From the NCBI GenBank assembly GCA_913055685.1, contig CAJXKC010000001.1, positions 682,001-746,000 on the forward strand: a stretch of 64,000 nucleotides of DNA. The letters run 5' to 3'. The notes below the pieces were generated by a model. It was not told where the DNA came from. It did no database searches and was given only the letters and a program-made list of their open reading frames with translations. The stretch comes from an uncultured Flavobacteriales bacterium (lineage in GTDB: Bacteria; Bacteroidota; Bacteroidia; Flavobacteriales; Schleiferiaceae). The position numbers were made by a program, and so were the translations under genes. Positions 59,701 through 64,000 of the stretch are shown piece after piece; within the stretch, counting starts at the first letter, position 1, and each line of letters opens with the position of its first letter.

Positions 59701-59904
59701 CGCCTTAATGAGGTAATTACCATCCATATCGGTCATGGTTCCATTGCTAGTACCCTCAACCTTAATGTTTACCCCAGGGATGGACATGCCATTTGCTTCG
59801 CTAACTTTTCCGGTAATGGTGAGACTTTGCGCTACCATTTGGAAGCCAAAGAGTACCATAAAGGCCGAAAGTAAGAAGCGACTTGAGCGTAAATACACTT
59901 TCAT
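56788..59904 (-). CDS. susC: SusC/RagA-family TonB-dependent oligosaccharide importer
   Basis: 1038 residues. Signal peptide (ending FQMVAQ), a carboxypeptidase-regulatory-like domain (about 28-100; GKVSEANGMSIPGVNIKVEG), the TonB plug (about 110-230; SIRIRGLSTFGDNDPLILVD and GIYGVRAANGVI) and a beta barrel ending in LKF. With SusD it takes up glucan oligosaccharides using the proton-motive force through TonB-ExbBD. First gene of the minus-strand PUL operon; the ATG lies inside a repeat of the CATTTGGTTCT element seen upstream. There is no sign of an N-terminal STN domain for sigma-factor signalling, so control likely comes from the cytoplasmic regulator. Confidence 0.96.
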   Translation of the reverse strand: MKVYLRSSRFLLSAFMVLFGFQMVAQSLTITGKVSEANGMSIPGVNIKVEGTSNGTMTDMDGNYLIKAEKGQVLVFSFVGFKTQKRTVEKGGALDVTMEEEAALLGEIVVVGYGSSTKKELTGAAAKVEGAELKKLNVPRLDAALQGAVSGVTINTNSGSPGGASSIRIRGLSTFGDNDPLILVDGIVYDSEGLNALNPDDIASVNVLKDGTAGIYGVRAANGVIIIETKKGKLNTAPQFEFSGFYGMQNTARRLPLLNATEYAVIKNNAFTNGGQTAPFANTSLGEGTDWQDAVFSSAPMQSYNMSINGGSQTTRYSIGGSYYTQDGIVGLDKSNFTRYNARLNLSFDLDKNLRVNSVLLYTNEARRTLPENGIGSVLYNTINAYPTEPLRYEDGGYSYLPLVNDIINPLAQMENTHNLSKVNKLVGKEELVWTINKDFSFTNRFNFNLALVDDKVFSPLAWYGPGKAQNTAANANLDAPQVQIADSVFLDRGASVYEQRASYIDLSYEGFVNYEHTFKDIHKVKSTVGVSVFTRKGSALSGTAFNIPNNSIDFADISANQAEGGFLNQTGSFEFEERLLSGFMRAEYSLRNRYIFSAIVRRDGSSRFGPNNRWGIFPAFSGAWVFSDEVFWEGLNLDFIDFGKMRMSYGISGNDQIPNFAYRALLNGEGVYVFNDILAQGVAIGRASNPDLKWETTHQFNVGLDLNFLKDFNFTFNYFVKNTNDLLFQPDVSGLLGTYGAGGFPPFVNAGDVSNRGMEFELGYNSNPANDWVFNANMNVTTLVNEVVRVPDGVDFIPGAAFGVGGVIATRFEAGQPIGYYIGYETDGVFQTQSEIDNSPVTQAGARPGDLKFVDQNGDGVINFNDDSDKVKLGSPIPDLTIGFNFRVAYKNWDLSGNLYAALGQEIIRNYERNQPYANQLNYVIDRWTGPGSTNDIPRVTTGVTRNTIFSDYYVEDGSFLRIRNLQLGYTLPKSWLGKARVESMRLYVSANNLFTLTNYQGYDPDIGNFGGPLSAGVDYGFYPQARVIMGGFNLKF

Positions 59905-59995
59905 TTGGTTCTGTTAATTAGTTGATAATCAGTTTCATTTGGTTCTTAAAGCTAAAAAGAAATGTGCTAATTACATTTTTAGCAAGAACCAAATG
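59902..59995. repeat. Three copies of CATTTGGTTCT around the susC start
   Basis: CATTTGGTTCT at 59902-59912 (including the susC ATG), CATTTGGTTCTT at 59936-59947, and its perfect 12-base inverted copy AAGAACCAAATG at 59984-59995. The last two form arms 36 bases apart. The inverted copy overlaps the -7 box. In the mRNA the first two copies lie in the leader and start region, so they could act in DNA binding or in RNA pairing. Confidence 0.6.
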
Positions 59996-60023
59996 TAAAC
60001 CTTTTGGTGATATGAACCAAAAG
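59990..60023 (-). promoter_or_regulatory. susC operon promoter with overlapping inverted-repeat operator
   Basis: On the minus strand TTTG (60021-60018), a 20-base spacer and TACATTTG (59997-59990) match the Bacteroidota TTTG-N19-21-TAnnTTTG promoter. An inverted repeat, CTTTTGGT (60001-60008), 7 bases, ACCAAAAG (60016-60023), covers the -33 box and most of the spacer, as a repressor or ligand-controlled operator would. The transcription start would fall near 59983, giving a leader of about 80 bases. Confidence 0.75.
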
Positions 60024-60124
60024 CTAAGGCGGAGAAAAATGATGCGAAGCGGTAATCAGGGGCTTAGTCACACTTTAAATACTGAGCTAATGGTGAAAAT
60101 AACCATTAGTTGTTTATGGTGCTA

Positions 60125-60376
60125 GAAGCAGCGAGTGGCTGGCTAAGGGCCCTTTCCAAGAATTTATGGACGTCGAGCGGTTTTAGGCCTAAGCATTCTC
60201 TGAGGGAAAAAGGAGGCTTTAGGCTTGGCCCATTTGGTCTTAGGGCTTTGGGACAGAGAGGTGCAGCGGATTAGAGGGGCTGCTTTCAGGCAGGGCGTCT
60301 TCCTTTAAGCTGCCTAGCGGGGATCTTTAGGTAAAAGGAGAAAGAGGGATTGAGGTCAAGCTAAGGGGGCTATGGT
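60125..60376. other. G-rich gene-free stretch before the 22-bp array
   Basis: No convincing reading frame. Strong excess of G over C on the plus strand and repeated short words such as GCCTAGCGGGGA (60313 and again at 60483), AAGGGCCCTTTCC and AGGTC. It may be an older, decayed part of the same repeat family. Confidence 0.5.
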
Positions 60377-60441
60377 CCTGGGAAAAGGTCCCTTTCCGCC
60401 TGACTATTCGGCACGGCCCTGCCCCCTTTTCCTCCTGGTGG

Positions 60442-60925
60442 CATAGGGTCAAGGTGAGGGCCTTTAGGGGGGAAAGTCGAGTGCCTAGCGGGGAAAGGTG
60501 CCAGGCTTAGTGCTATAAAGGGGGCCTCATCTTGGGGCAAGGTCTAAGTCATCATGGGGCAAAGGGCTGCTGCGCTTGGGCCAAGGTCAGAGGGGCTTAG
60601 ACCTAATTAGCGGGTCCTATGGGAAATGGTCTAAAGGCTAATAGGAAATGGTCGGCATGCGCATGGGGAAAGCCCCAGTCGGACATGGGGAAAGGTCGGG
60701 ATGGTCATGGGGAATCCCCTAGTCGGTCATGGGGAAAGGTCTAGGCCATCATGGGGAAAGCCCCTCCGAGTCATGGGGAAAGCTGCAAAGGGTCATGGGC
60801 CAAAGCCCAAATGCTAAAAGGGGATGGTATACCAGCAAGGGGGCCAAAGGGGGAGCGCCAATGGGGTTTCCTCCCCAGGGTCATGGGAGAAAGTCAGGCC
60901 CCTCATTGGGGAAAAGCCATCAACT
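60442..60925 (+). repeat. Degenerate 22-bp periodic array, about 22 units
   Basis: The core CATGGGGAAAG recurs exactly at 60662, 60684, 60728, 60750 and 60772, and with small changes at 60706, 60794, 60882 and 60904: all steps are multiples of 22. Near-register units extend back to 60442 (60487, 60531, 60553, 60575, 60618, 60640) and forward through 60816, 60838 and 60860. The consensus first part is CATGGGGAAAGGTC; the remaining 8 bases vary. Several units can form small hairpins GGGGAAAGCCCC. 22 bp is about two helical turns. It is non-coding: 22 is not a multiple of 3. A weaker match at 60377 (CCTGGGAAAAGGTC) is also in register. Confidence 0.85.
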
Positions 60926-61048
60926 AACTGTATGAAATAGGCAAGCTAAAGGTATGAGCTCCATTTGGAGAGAAGCGGCCTAGCGAATGGGGAAGGGAGA
61001 AAATAGGCATGTTTTTTTGGCGCGCTAGGGCTTGTGGCTAGGGGCCTA

Positions 61049-61096
61049 CTGTCGGTTTTCGACAGTTTGCTGGTAGTGGCTGTCGATTTTCGACAG
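61049..61096. promoter_or_regulatory. Twin palindromes CTGTCG-N5-CGACAG upstream of the 264-residue protein
   Basis: CTGTCGGTTTTCGACAG at 61049-61065 and CTGTCGATTTTCGACAG at 61080-61096, identical except for one loop base, 31 bp apart (about three turns). Same-face spacing is typical of paired operators for a dimeric DNA-binding protein. They lie about 65 bases upstream of the next ATG. Confidence 0.65.
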
Positions 61097-61159
61097 CGCT
61101 CTTTGGGGCGAGAAGGGCAGCTTTGTAGGGTATTTATTTATTAACTAAAAATTATCGTT

Positions 61160-61954
61160 ATGAGTAAATTTGAGCGAAACCGTTATTATATGTTGGTAGC
61201 GGTAGAAAAGGTAAGCGAGACTTACCGCAGCAAATGGGAAGAGTTTCCCGACTTCCAAGGCCCGATGGGTCAATTAAGTGCTTACCTAAGGCAATTTGAG
61301 TCCTTGCGTAAAGAGAAAGCGGAGCTAAAAGTAAGCTTGGTGGCTTCCCGCGATTCGCAATGGGTGATCTTAGGCGAGAAATTGCATCAATTGGCAGGCT
61401 TTTTATATGCTCAGGCTAAGGCCGAAGGCAATAAGGATGCCATGGAATTGCTGAAGGTGAACCGGACCAGTTTGGAAACTCAAAGTTTTGAGAGCACCAT
61501 TCTTTTAGCTAAGCGGATTTTAGGTTTGGCCGAGGGGATGGTAAATCGCGATAGTAGCGATCTGCAAAAATCCTTGTTTAAGGAAGCCAAGGCCTTGTAC
61601 CAGATTTTTGAGAACAATGGCATGCGTCCGCGTGAGCGTCAGATCCGCAGTGGCCAGGTAACTAATATGCTGGCTGATCTGTACCGGGAGATTGCCATTT
61701 TCTTGAAAGAGGAGCTAGATCCTTTAATGCGTTATTTCAAGCAGAAGGAAGCCGAGTTCTACTCTGCTTATCAGCGTGCGCGCATTATTCCGAAGTTAAA
61801 TGGTCAGCGTCCATTATCGAGCCAAGACGAGGGAGCCGAGAATGGAGCTTTCGCCGCAATGTCCTCTCAAGACGCTAATGGGGCCTATGGTATGAAAGAT
61901 CCGCCAGGTAGCAGCGCTAATGATCCTAATTCGGGACAGGATGAAGCGGCTTAG
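61160..61954 (+). CDS. Unrecognised helical protein next to the 22-bp array
   Basis: 264 residues, no signal peptide or membrane helix. Residues 1-210 are predicted by eye to be mostly helical with charged and heptad-like stretches (QFESLRKEKAELKVSLVA; EIAIFLKEELDPLMRYFKQK). Residues 212-264 are low-complexity, rich in Ser, Gly, Ala, Asp and Asn, with two SSQDxxA repeats. No family recognised. It stands alone between the twin palindromes and a strong terminator, so it is a single-gene transcript, with an HTH-like gene after it. Whether it is connected with the array is unknown. Confidence 0.7.
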   Translation: MSKFERNRYYMLVAVEKVSETYRSKWEEFPDFQGPMGQLSAYLRQFESLRKEKAELKVSLVASRDSQWVILGEKLHQLAGFLYAQAKAEGNKDAMELLKVNRTSLETQSFESTILLAKRILGLAEGMVNRDSSDLQKSLFKEAKALYQIFENNGMRPRERQIRSGQVTNMLADLYREIAIFLKEELDPLMRYFKQKEAEFYSAYQRARIIPKLNGQRPLSSQDEGAENGAFAAMSSQDANGAYGMKDPPGSSANDPNSGQDEAA

Positions 61955-61964
61955 GTCGCGCCAG

Positions 61965-61990
61965 AGGGGGGCTTCGGTCCCCCTTTTTTT
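61965..61990 (+). terminator. Strong rho-independent terminator with UUCG loop
   Basis: AGGGGGG-CTTCGG-TCCCCCT followed by seven Ts, located 11 bases after the stop of the preceding gene. Stem of 6-8 bp closing a cUUCGg tetraloop. Confidence 0.92.
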
Positions 61991-62063
61991 GTATCTTAAT
62001 AGTAGCCTTTTTTAAAAACCTATACTGTAAAAGGTTGATTAACAAAACCTAATTGCGCTTGTC

Positions 62064-62942
62064 ATGTCTACTTTTCGCTTCCCCCAGGTATCATTTTTAC
62101 GCTTGGTGGCCAAGGCTTTGCCCGAAGGCTATTCCCTGCACCATTATTTGATGGATCAGTTTGAGATCTCCGAATCGGCTGCTTTCAAGCGCATTCGCGG
62201 GGCAGCGGAATTAAAAAGTCATGAGATCGCCCATTTGGTGGCCGCCTATCCCACCTGTTTGGAGAAACTCTTGGCCCAGAGCGAGGATTTGGATCATTAT
62301 GCGATGAGTCAGACCAGTTACTTTAGCGATGAAGACGAACTGTGGACCTACCTCAAGCGGATCCACGCTCTTTTCAGTCGCGCTAAAGAGGAAGGCGCTC
62401 ATTTATACTATACCGCTTTAGATTTTCCCTTGTTTCACTTCTTGGCCGAGGCCGATATTTTGAATTATAAATATGCCTTTTGGACCAATCGGATCTTAGT
62501 GGAAGGTATTTCTCCTTTACGCGCCAATACGCTACGCTTAGCGCGTGAGATTTACGAATTGTACCGAGGCTGTGCTTCTACCGAAATTTGGTCGCCCCGC
62601 ATCGTTCAGCGCCAGTCGGAGCAGCTGCGGGCCATGGTTAAGGCCGGTCATTTAGGTGAGGCGCAAGTTTTGGCTTTGGAGCAAGCCTATGCCCGGCAGC
62701 AAGCCCAGAGTTTAAAAGACCTAAGGCGAGAAGAAAAGGAAGCCGGCATTGCCTATCGGGTATACCGCGCGCCTTACAATAACTTGAGTAATGGCGGGGT
62801 CTTACTCTTTCCCGAGGGCGAGTCGATTTACATGGGATCTTTTAGCAATGCGCAATTCTTAAGGTCGAGTAGCAAGGCGGTGGTAGATAAGTTTAGGGCC
62901 GATTTTGATGCCTTAAGGGCCCTGTCGGAGCCGATGTATTAG
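62064..62942 (+). CDS. Putative HTH-type regulator with large C-terminal domain
   Basis: 292 residues. The N-terminus looks like the XRE-related helix-turn-helix seen in a Bacteroidota regulator family: LHHYLMDQFEISESAAFKRI followed by RGAAELKSHEIAHLV, where the recognition-helix text AAFKRIRGAAEL parallels the AAYRRIRGEKPL-type motif. The rest (about 75-292) is helical, then beta-rich (YRAPYNNLSNGGVLLF), with no known domain. It is a likely DNA-binding protein and a candidate binder of the twin palindromes 1 kb upstream; this link is inference. Confidence 0.6.
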   Translation: MSTFRFPQVSFLRLVAKALPEGYSLHHYLMDQFEISESAAFKRIRGAAELKSHEIAHLVAAYPTCLEKLLAQSEDLDHYAMSQTSYFSDEDELWTYLKRIHALFSRAKEEGAHLYYTALDFPLFHFLAEADILNYKYAFWTNRILVEGISPLRANTLRLAREIYELYRGCASTEIWSPRIVQRQSEQLRAMVKAGHLGEAQVLALEQAYARQQAQSLKDLRREEKEAGIAYRVYRAPYNNLSNGGVLLFPEGESIYMGSFSNAQFLRSSSKAVVDKFRADFDALRALSEPMY

Positions 62943-63055
62943 ATGTCTGTGCTCTATAGCGCTATTGGGAATGTACGGTCCCTTAAAACCAGTTTGATTA
63001 TAGGGGAGCTTACAGATTAGTGTAAATTGCTTACAACTACTTTTTGTACGCTTTA

Positions 63056-63472
63056 TTAATTTTTTCTCCTAAGGTTTAAGGTCTCTGAATCGATAAATTT
63101 AATCAAGTATGCACCATTCCATTGATTGGTCCCCGAAATTGTAACTATCCTTTCATTTGATCCATCACTAATTTCCCATTCACCTTTTGCTGAGCTTGGC
63201 GGATTTCCAGTTCCGCATCTATTCCACCAATGTTCGATAAGAACTCCTTCCTCTTGAAAAGTGATTCCGCCGTATTTCAAGTGCATAGGAAGGTTCTGTG
63301 CTTCCTGAGATTCGTAGGATATTAAATTAATTTCATCGAGTTCTGAGAATGAGCCTGGATTGCTGGGGTCATTCACAAGCCACCTGCCAAGAAGCTTAAC
63401 ATTCTCAATGGGCTTATCAGTAGAGGAGTTTAAGAGAGTAATTAGAGCAAATATTGATACTATGGCCTTCAT
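63056..63472 (-). CDS. Hypothetical secreted protein, lipocalin-like
   Basis: 138 residues with a short signal peptide (first 18 residues, ending NSS). The mature domain has the pattern of a small lipocalin-like beta barrel: LLGRWLVNDPS near the start, GEWEISDG and a terminal SETLNLRRKN strand, as in extracytoplasmic proteins that report on ligands. Two cysteine-free turns; one Cys only. Function unknown. AT-rich relative to the upstream plus-strand genes. Confidence 0.55.
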   Translation of the reverse strand: MKAIVSIFALITLLNSSTDKPIENVKLLGRWLVNDPSNPGSFSELDEINLISYESQEAQNLPMHLKYGGITFQEEGVLIEHWWNRCGTGNPPSSAKGEWEISDGSNERIVTISGTNQWNGAYLIKFIDSETLNLRRKN

Positions 63473-63624
63473 TTTCTTTTAATTGAGCGCAAGGGTCTCG
63501 GCATGGCATTAAGGGAAATGCGAAGCGAGCTTGCATTGAATTTTGATTAATTAGGGATTTCAATATCGGGAACAAATGGGGAGGAGGCAAACCTTATTTG
63601 CTACAGGCATTGTTGCCAAGCGTT

Positions 63625-63915
63625 TTATTTGAAGATTGAATCTATTTCTTGTCTTCCGACAATCGCCATGATTTCTACAGAACCTTCATTGACTCGGTAA
63701 AAAATACTGTCGGCACCGCAAGGGCACCGCCTGTAGCCCGGCTTTATGTAATCCACGGATTCAAAGGCATCGGGATTGCTAGCTATTAGTCCAAAATGAA
63801 TAAAAAGGTTCTCAAAGTACTTGTCAGCTTGTGATTCACCGAACCTAAAGGCCCCATAATTGTGTATACGAATCAAGTCTTCTTTAGCCTGTTCGGAGAT
63901 TTTATAATCACCCAT
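63625..63915 (-). CDS. ParE/RelE-family toxin
   Basis: 96 residues with the ParE pattern: YKISEQAKEDLIRIHNYGAF at the N-terminus, a central helix pair (QADKYFENLFIHFGLIASNP), then the conserved basic strand GYRRCPCGADSIFYRVNEG and the ending VEIMAIVGRQEI. ParE toxins poison DNA gyrase. The ATG overlaps the stop of the upstream antitoxin-like frame by 8 bases. Confidence 0.85.
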   Translation of the reverse strand: MGDYKISEQAKEDLIRIHNYGAFRFGESQADKYFENLFIHFGLIASNPDAFESVDYIKPGYRRCPCGADSIFYRVNEGSVEIMAIVGRQEIDSIFK

Positions 63916-64000
63916 TTAGACCTTGTTTGGCCTGAGCAAGAATTTGCTCCTTTGAATCGGTAGTAAATCCACTTTCCTCGCTTGAATTGAGTTTCGCTCT
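63908..64000 (-). CDS. ParD-type antitoxin, C-terminal part (cut by window edge)
   Basis: An open frame enters from the window edge and ends at a TGA (63910-63908), giving 30 residues: RAKLNSSEESGFTTDSKEQI and on to AKQGLNG. This matches the toxin-wrapping tail of ParD antitoxins (RAAL-xxxEESGF pattern). The overlap with the toxin start and order antitoxin-then-toxin are standard. The DNA-binding N-terminus lies beyond the window. Confidence 0.7.
   Translation of the reverse strand, partial: RAKLNSSEESGFTTDSKEQILAQAKQGLNG

Follow-up and report, generated by a model that had tools for sequence, protein, structure and literature searches.

Genes and Features of the Locus

The window analyzed here is a stretch of 64,000 nucleotides from the genome of an uncultured member of the Flavobacteriales. 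An intergenic gap extends from the start of a SusC-like gene at 59904, with a divergent SusC/SusD operon on that side, to the 264-aa ORF at 61160, designated gene A, which is followed by gene B (Table 1). The gap had been described as gene-free, which was borne out as it contains short mechanically called ORFs only.

Table 1. Features of the array-associated locus and related solo arrays.
Feature	Position	Strand	Identified by
Tandem array, 25 degenerate 22-bp units	60363..60911	+	TRF, repeat families, autocorrelation, profile chain
Palindrome 1, CTGTCGGTTTTCGACAG, candidate operator	61049..61065	.	
Palindrome 2, CTGTCGATTTTCGACAG, 31 bp from palindrome 1	61080..61096	.	
Gene A, encoding an unclassified all-helical protein of 264 aa; family associated with arrays	61160..61954	+	
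Gene B, 292-aa protein with N-terminal XRE-like HTH, candidate regulator	62064..62942	+	
Solo arrays sharing their unit with the A-linked array of that genome, no A nearby	L013:8010-8640; L276:5550-6160; L277:5950-6600		

The tandem array in the gap is real. Its unit profile has the consensus AAGGTCCAGGTGCTCATGGGGA and is conserved best in a core at 60648–60801. Tandem Repeats Finder (TRF) returned arrays with periods of 22/44 at 60644–60808, and an iterative unit profile showed a spacing of exactly 22 bp in 23 of 24 steps and of 21 bp in the remaining step. Autocorrelation over 60618–60930 gave its highest peak at lag 22 (z 9.8 relative to dinucleotide-shuffled sequence; mean of shuffled maxima 2.6), followed by peaks at lags 44, 88, 110, and 66. 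The strict 22-bp lattice claimed in the initial annotation therefore was reproduced by tandem-repeat and autocorrelation analyses with a peak well above shuffled sequences. Looser units had been traced back to ~60442, but profile units begin at 60363 and the true left edge of the lattice thus is ~80 bp further out. A division of each unit into a conserved and a variable half persisted as a trend only (11 columns with 67% of the information in the window array, p 0.08), and GGGG-AAAG-CCCC mini-hairpins were present, but in few units rather than in many. No other region of the 64-kb window resembled the array by TRF or in a genome search with the array, and Rfam covariance models scanned over 59900–62060 produced nothing near any gathering score.

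Protein A Forms an Unclassified, Sporadically Distributed Family

Protein A matched no Pfam, NCBIfam, PHROG, or PADLOC family, and scans of 18 and of 40 members recovered no Rep family; neither a known toxin nor Nop was detected in the Pfam scans. AlphaFold2 predicted an elongated bundle that is helical throughout, with core pLDDT values mostly above 90. Comparisons with Foldseek and VIA recovered common helical arrangements only, the best VIA Z-score being 10.4 over 95 residues, with 8.4 for an S23-type four-helix bundle. No Nop, Rep, or ParR fold was among the matches listed, and neither a convincing structural relative nor a convincing DNA-binding fold emerged from these two comparisons. 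The A proteins have net charges of +8 to −20 and are not basic, and a C-terminal Ig-like domain (CarboxypepD_reg or fn3-like) is common among the members.

Homologs were collected with profiles built stepwise. The host genome possesses two additional copies of A, one preceded by a clear 21-bp array of different sequence and the other by a degenerate 21–22-bp array. Further homologs were found in a second genus of the host family and throughout the phylum, including Ignavibacteria such as Stygiobacter. Of 395 genomes of the class, 51 carry the gene, often in multiple copies; it was absent from all six congeners searched, and its distribution accordingly is sporadic. Carriage of A by plasmids, phages, or viral contigs was rejected as no homolog was found among 72,556 plasmids (PLSDB), 50,697 phages, and IMG/VR. 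Very weak matches in three genomes (G550, G428, and G748; 300–420 aa, E ~1e-6) bear strong arrays, which provides independent support for their homology. Numerous A genes are positioned within ~1.2 kb of contig ends (C8, C32, C56, and C79 in G224; C283 and C285 in G345), which suggests that the arrays break short-read assemblies and are under-counted.

Arrays Recur Upstream of A Genes

A single periodicity score was used throughout, with an array defined by a score of at least 12, a cut-off that was fixed before the blind set was scored. In the discovery set, usable upstream DNA was available for 48 A genes and 38 of these were preceded by an array; the best period nearly always was 21 (20–22). 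Shuffled maxima in this set were ~9, save for one N-containing locus, and scores downstream of A were mostly at background. The blind set of 60 further A loci yielded arrays at 41, with 21 the best of 21 candidate periods in 39 of these and with shuffled maxima of 8.0 compared to the cut-off of 12; loci from one genome or genus are not fully independent in either count. The arrays always were 5′ of A, usually within a few hundred bp. No array was detected within 1.1–1.2 kb of 10 of the 48 discovery and 19 of the 60 blind A genes. Certain of the array-less genes in the discovery set are at a contig end or have an array beyond gene B. GC-rich coding DNA can reach scores of 12–16 through 3-bp periodicity and single loci in this range therefore are weaker evidence, but most arrays scored 17–68. 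The 586 kb of surrounding DNA that served as a control contained two or three other 20–22-bp arrays, one of which is a solo array (see below), so that arrays at A are enriched more than a hundredfold. Other repeats in the A loci have many different periods. Two further repeats were noted near A genes, namely 22-bp GTGAAAGGTGAAACGTAGAGAC-type units between A and the next gene (L128:4450-4720), which are not upstream of an A gene, and a genuine CRISPR array with the repeat GTTTCAATCCACGCGCCCGCGCGGGGCGCGAC just 3′ of an A gene (L126:1-1160).

The expectation that homologs of the 264-residue protein would be accompanied by the same array was strongly upheld by both sets. The array is not limited to the host genome, but in the six congeners searched the A gene itself is missing. 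Overall, there is scarcely any doubt that the A/array module exists as described. It is a previously unclassified module that is spread across the Bacteroidota, and no description of such a module was found in the open-access literature.

Spacing is Conserved but Unit Sequence is Free

The arrays comprise ~8–46 units. Mean spacing was 21.00 in most arrays, whereas those of the host family averaged 21.0–21.5 and the window array 21.96; among 36 non-redundant arrays of the blind set, 480 of 497 steps were exactly 21. The period was 21 in nearly all of ~75 arrays. The unit consensus is unrelated between families, and thus it is spacing and not sequence that is conserved. Units resembled each other on the same strand among related A proteins, in the most similar arrays, and in a few cross-family pairs, exemplified by GAAAA....TTGACATTGAC-like units in G478 and G643. 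The arrays did not track A similarity past ~25%, and the idea that A and its array covary outside close relatives was rejected. In the pair G224 and G345, the array core showed no differences in 189 bp and no indels were observed in the 2.6 kb compared, whereas the A genes differ at 11% of third codon positions. Identity of the core alongside this divergence suggests that the core is under constraint in these two genomes.

Conserved positions are grouped in contiguous blocks within units, and nearly all 21 columns are conserved in three arrays (G748, G854, and G633a). Arrays were most homogeneous centrally and decayed toward the edges, and several displayed a doublet structure of 42–44 bp. That unit length is fixed and unit sequence is not suggests that a protein acts as a ruler along the DNA. 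The initial annotation had proposed that a two-turn period would place protein sites on one face of the helix. The phylum-wide 21-bp period, shared by units of unrelated sequence, fits this proposal best, but a 10.5-bp modulation of conservation (nominal p 0.002 and 8e-5), which would be a more direct sign that one face is recognized, diminished to z 1.7 against smooth surrogates, reflecting mostly the smoothness of neighboring positions. As the modulation was mostly lost in this control, it is not relied on here.

Other readings of the array fared less well. Transcription into a multi-hairpin RNA, which had been raised as an alternative, was rejected since the predicted RNA stability of the window array did not surpass that of dinucleotide-shuffled controls (z −0.7) and fold z-scores of 27 arrays were scattered about zero. 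Intrinsic curvature did not exceed that of column-permuted arrays (mean p 0.49). The array had been judged to be neither coding nor CRISPR, and both judgments were sustained. A coding minisatellite specifying a heptapeptide is ruled out by the absence of a 3-bp harmonic and by spacings of 22 bp in the window and 21.2–21.5 bp in the host family. The 21–22-bp units are contiguous, with no unique spacers, and no cas match was found among the neighboring proteins scanned. As a separate observation, three arrays elsewhere (L237, L162, and L277) include long open frames that read as repeats of the heptapeptides MQRVYVA, LHSFFDY, and HSEFCKN, so that annotation of these arrays as protein genes would be an easy error.

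Solo Arrays Occur at a Distance from A

When the host genome was searched with the window array, one relative was found ~790 kb away on the same contig (C1:1533964–1534622), consisting of 30 units of TGGGGAAAGGTCGGACAGGCCA with no A homolog adjoining. The G885 genome has a second array with the unit of its A-linked array at a distance of 637 kb, as does G748 at 171 kb, where the two arrays are 96% identical. Thus, a distant solo array with a matching unit was present in all three genomes checked. The solo arrays of G885 and G748 are between convergent genes with no A within ~6 kb, a setting that speaks against function as a plain promoter element and in favor of recognition in trans. Collectively, the solo arrays suggest a site that is read in trans by a binder of single specificity. 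Recent copying of the array is an alternative for the G748 pair. The G885 solo array is ~3 kb from a dnaN-like gene, and the sampled GC-skew profile of this genome was too flat for the arrays to be located with respect to the origin or terminus.

A single strong non-coding 21-bp array was present in 400 kb of G885 sampled without bias. This array, with a 21/42-bp pattern (L280:8090-8510), is directly upstream of a gene for a 206-aa protein (L280:8769-9386) with an fn3 domain, a helical portion as judged from sequence, and no detectable homology to A. The presence of an array in front of a helical protein with an FN3 domain that is not A hints that the array rule may extend beyond A to a second protein family.

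Paired Palindromes and Gene B

Two palindromes separate the array from A. Exact copies of CTGTCGNTTTTCGACAG in the host genome are limited to those at 61049 and 61080; a third site differs by two mismatches. Much of the host family similarly has two palindromes 30–32 bp apart before A, including G010, G224, and G345, in which TTCGCCAWWWTGGCGAA is confined genome-wide to A promoters. The sequence of the palindromes varies between A copies, implying that regulation is dedicated. Protein B (AF2 pLDDT 91.6) is paired with A in the host family only and, with its HTH, is perhaps the regulator that acts on A through the paired palindromes in this family. The notion that the operator is an iteron-like unit was convincing by eye, but failed when half-sites were compared: the own array ranked 6–29 of ~30, and shuffled palindromes often performed equally. 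As half-sites do not resemble units above chance, the array and the operators probably are read by different proteins or surfaces.

A row of small minus-strand ORFs begins immediately right of gene B and occupies the window from ~63000 to 64000 and L012:3000-18000. The row encodes ParE-like and MazF/PemK-like toxins, HTH antitoxins, and other proteins, is punctuated by repeated 70–150-bp intergenic elements, and ends at an integron-integrase/XerA-like recombinase gene (NF040815 E 7e-66; TIGR02249 E 2.7e-64). It includes a near-identical pair of 181-aa ORFs (L012:11357-11902 and L012:16372-16917) that denotes a recent duplication. The row looks like a chromosomal integron-type cassette array; a simple pattern search of the row revealed no attC sites.

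Discussion

The interpretation that we favor, with a probability of roughly 0.45 for the reading as a whole, is that the array constitutes a series of binding sites in duplex DNA that recur every two helical turns, mostly 21 bp and here 22 bp, and that are bound by A or by a partner dedicated to A. Either protein would recognize the units, and bound protomers would stack side by side to produce an extended nucleoprotein assembly on the array. The protein fold would set the spacing, while each A/array pair would be free to drift in sequence. With a second array of matching unit far from A, the protein is likely to act on both arrays in trans, in the role of a DNA anchor or assembly platform and not of a mere promoter element. 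Expression of A in the host family is probably governed via the pair of palindromes, with the HTH protein B as a possible reader. Duplex DNA is the probable ligand, and that A itself is the binder is tenable, if somewhat short of an even chance. The assembly might function in segregation or anchoring, or in sequestration of a partner of the C-terminal Ig-like domains; selfish maintenance is another possible function. More doubtful is the further proposition that the helical protein, often equipped with Ig-like domains, polymerizes on its own array with a fixed 21-bp lattice and links it to a distant twin array.

The alternative that survives best, yet is unlikely, is that the array is a cis-regulatory multi-operator for a transcription factor, B here and others elsewhere, that tunes or titrates A expression. 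The invariable 5′ location within, as a rule, a few hundred bp of A accords with this idea, as do the XRE-like HTH of B, its pairing with A in the host family, and the dedicated palindromes that reveal a regulator of A's own. However, the B–A pairing is limited to this family, the G885 and G748 solo arrays are between convergent genes, an entire ORF intervenes between array and A at G643b, and palindrome half-sites match units no better than chance.

Less probable again is an RNA-level system, in which transcribed units would provide an RNA antitoxin to A, a sponge for it, or the precursor of its small RNAs in the manner of type III toxin-antitoxin or guide systems. The array is 5′ of a gene with a sporadic, multi-copy distribution and the most similar arrays are alike on the same strand, but fold z-scores are about zero, unit length equals two DNA turns phylum-wide, arrays such as those of G748 and G854 have no variable spacers, and scans of A found no known toxin or Nop family.

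The two remaining explanations are improbable. A plasmid-derived replication or partition locus, left over as a remnant or copied into the chromosome and composed of iterons or a centromere plus binder, would account for 21–22-bp direct repeats and promoter inverted repeats that resemble iteron/rep and parC/parR layouts, and three loci of the host family have an integrase-like gene in the vicinity; against this, A and B lack Rep, ParA, ParM, or ParB matches, no A homolog was found in the plasmid, phage, and IMG/VR collections, and operator/array half-site similarity is not above chance. A neutral minisatellite, in which slippage or recombination creates and homogenizes functionless repeats near A, would explain mid-array homogeneity, edge decay, and variation of units between loci, but not the period of 21 in nearly all of ~75 arrays when repeats of other kinds at these loci vary widely in period, the strict conservation of the core between G224 and G345, or the >100-fold enrichment at A.

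Irrespective of mechanism, the data furnish a predictive rule, namely that about two thirds of A genes have a 21-bp array in front, and a definable protein family with dozens of loci and several complete genomes. The module possibly represents an unrecognized class of DNA-organizing or selfish element in a highly abundant bacterial phylum.

Comparison with Known Systems

TIGR arrays consist of two alternating repeats of 8–12 nt with 9-nt variable spacers (PMC12045711). The TIGR-Tas systems share with the present module an array beside a single protein gene, and 42–44-bp doublets are evident in several arrays here, but whole units repeat without spacers in G748 and G854. The Nop-domain protein that is the other hallmark of TIGR-Tas was looked for in A; Pfam scans gave no Nop, and none was among the Foldseek and VIA matches listed. 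In type III toxin-antitoxin systems such as ToxIN, which also are sporadic, tandem repeats directly precede one gene and the antitoxin repeats are structured RNAs of ~35 nt. The module has this layout and distribution in common with ToxIN, but array fold z-scores are ~zero, A is all-helical, and no match to ToxN, CptN, or TenpN was found with Pfam or PADLOC. The BrickBuilt element of Porphyromonas gingivalis comprises spacer-free 23-nt tandem repeats in intergenic DNA and is a dispersed MITE with inverted-repeat ends and 19 copies in one strain (PMC4596501). The likeness is in spacer-free, intergenic tandem repeats in the Bacteroidota; the abstract of that report describes no associated protein.

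Iteron/Rep origins such as those of R6K and pPS10 have iterons of ~22 bp upstream of a gene with an inverted-repeat promoter. The resemblance lies in equal-length direct repeats upstream of a gene with promoter inverted repeats, but neither A nor B matched a Rep family, half-sites are unlike units, and no PLSDB plasmid was found to carry A. In the plasmid centromere systems ParR/parC and SopB/sopC, tandem sites with a fixed spacing (~10–20 bp for parC and 43 bp for sopC) adjoin the gene for the binder, and site spacing is set by protein geometry. Fixed-spacing tandem sites beside a protein gene are the shared attribute. In contrast, the A arrays are chromosomal and sometimes present in many copies per genome with different units, and A is in neither the ParR nor the ParB family. 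Among the neighboring families that recur in at least two genomes, no motor NTPase was recognized. If the more doubtful proposition of a polymer of A that links twin arrays is correct, this chromosomal, phylum-wide module would constitute a protein-set DNA lattice of freely drifting sequence, comparable to eukaryotic centromere satellites and to no bacterial system described so far.
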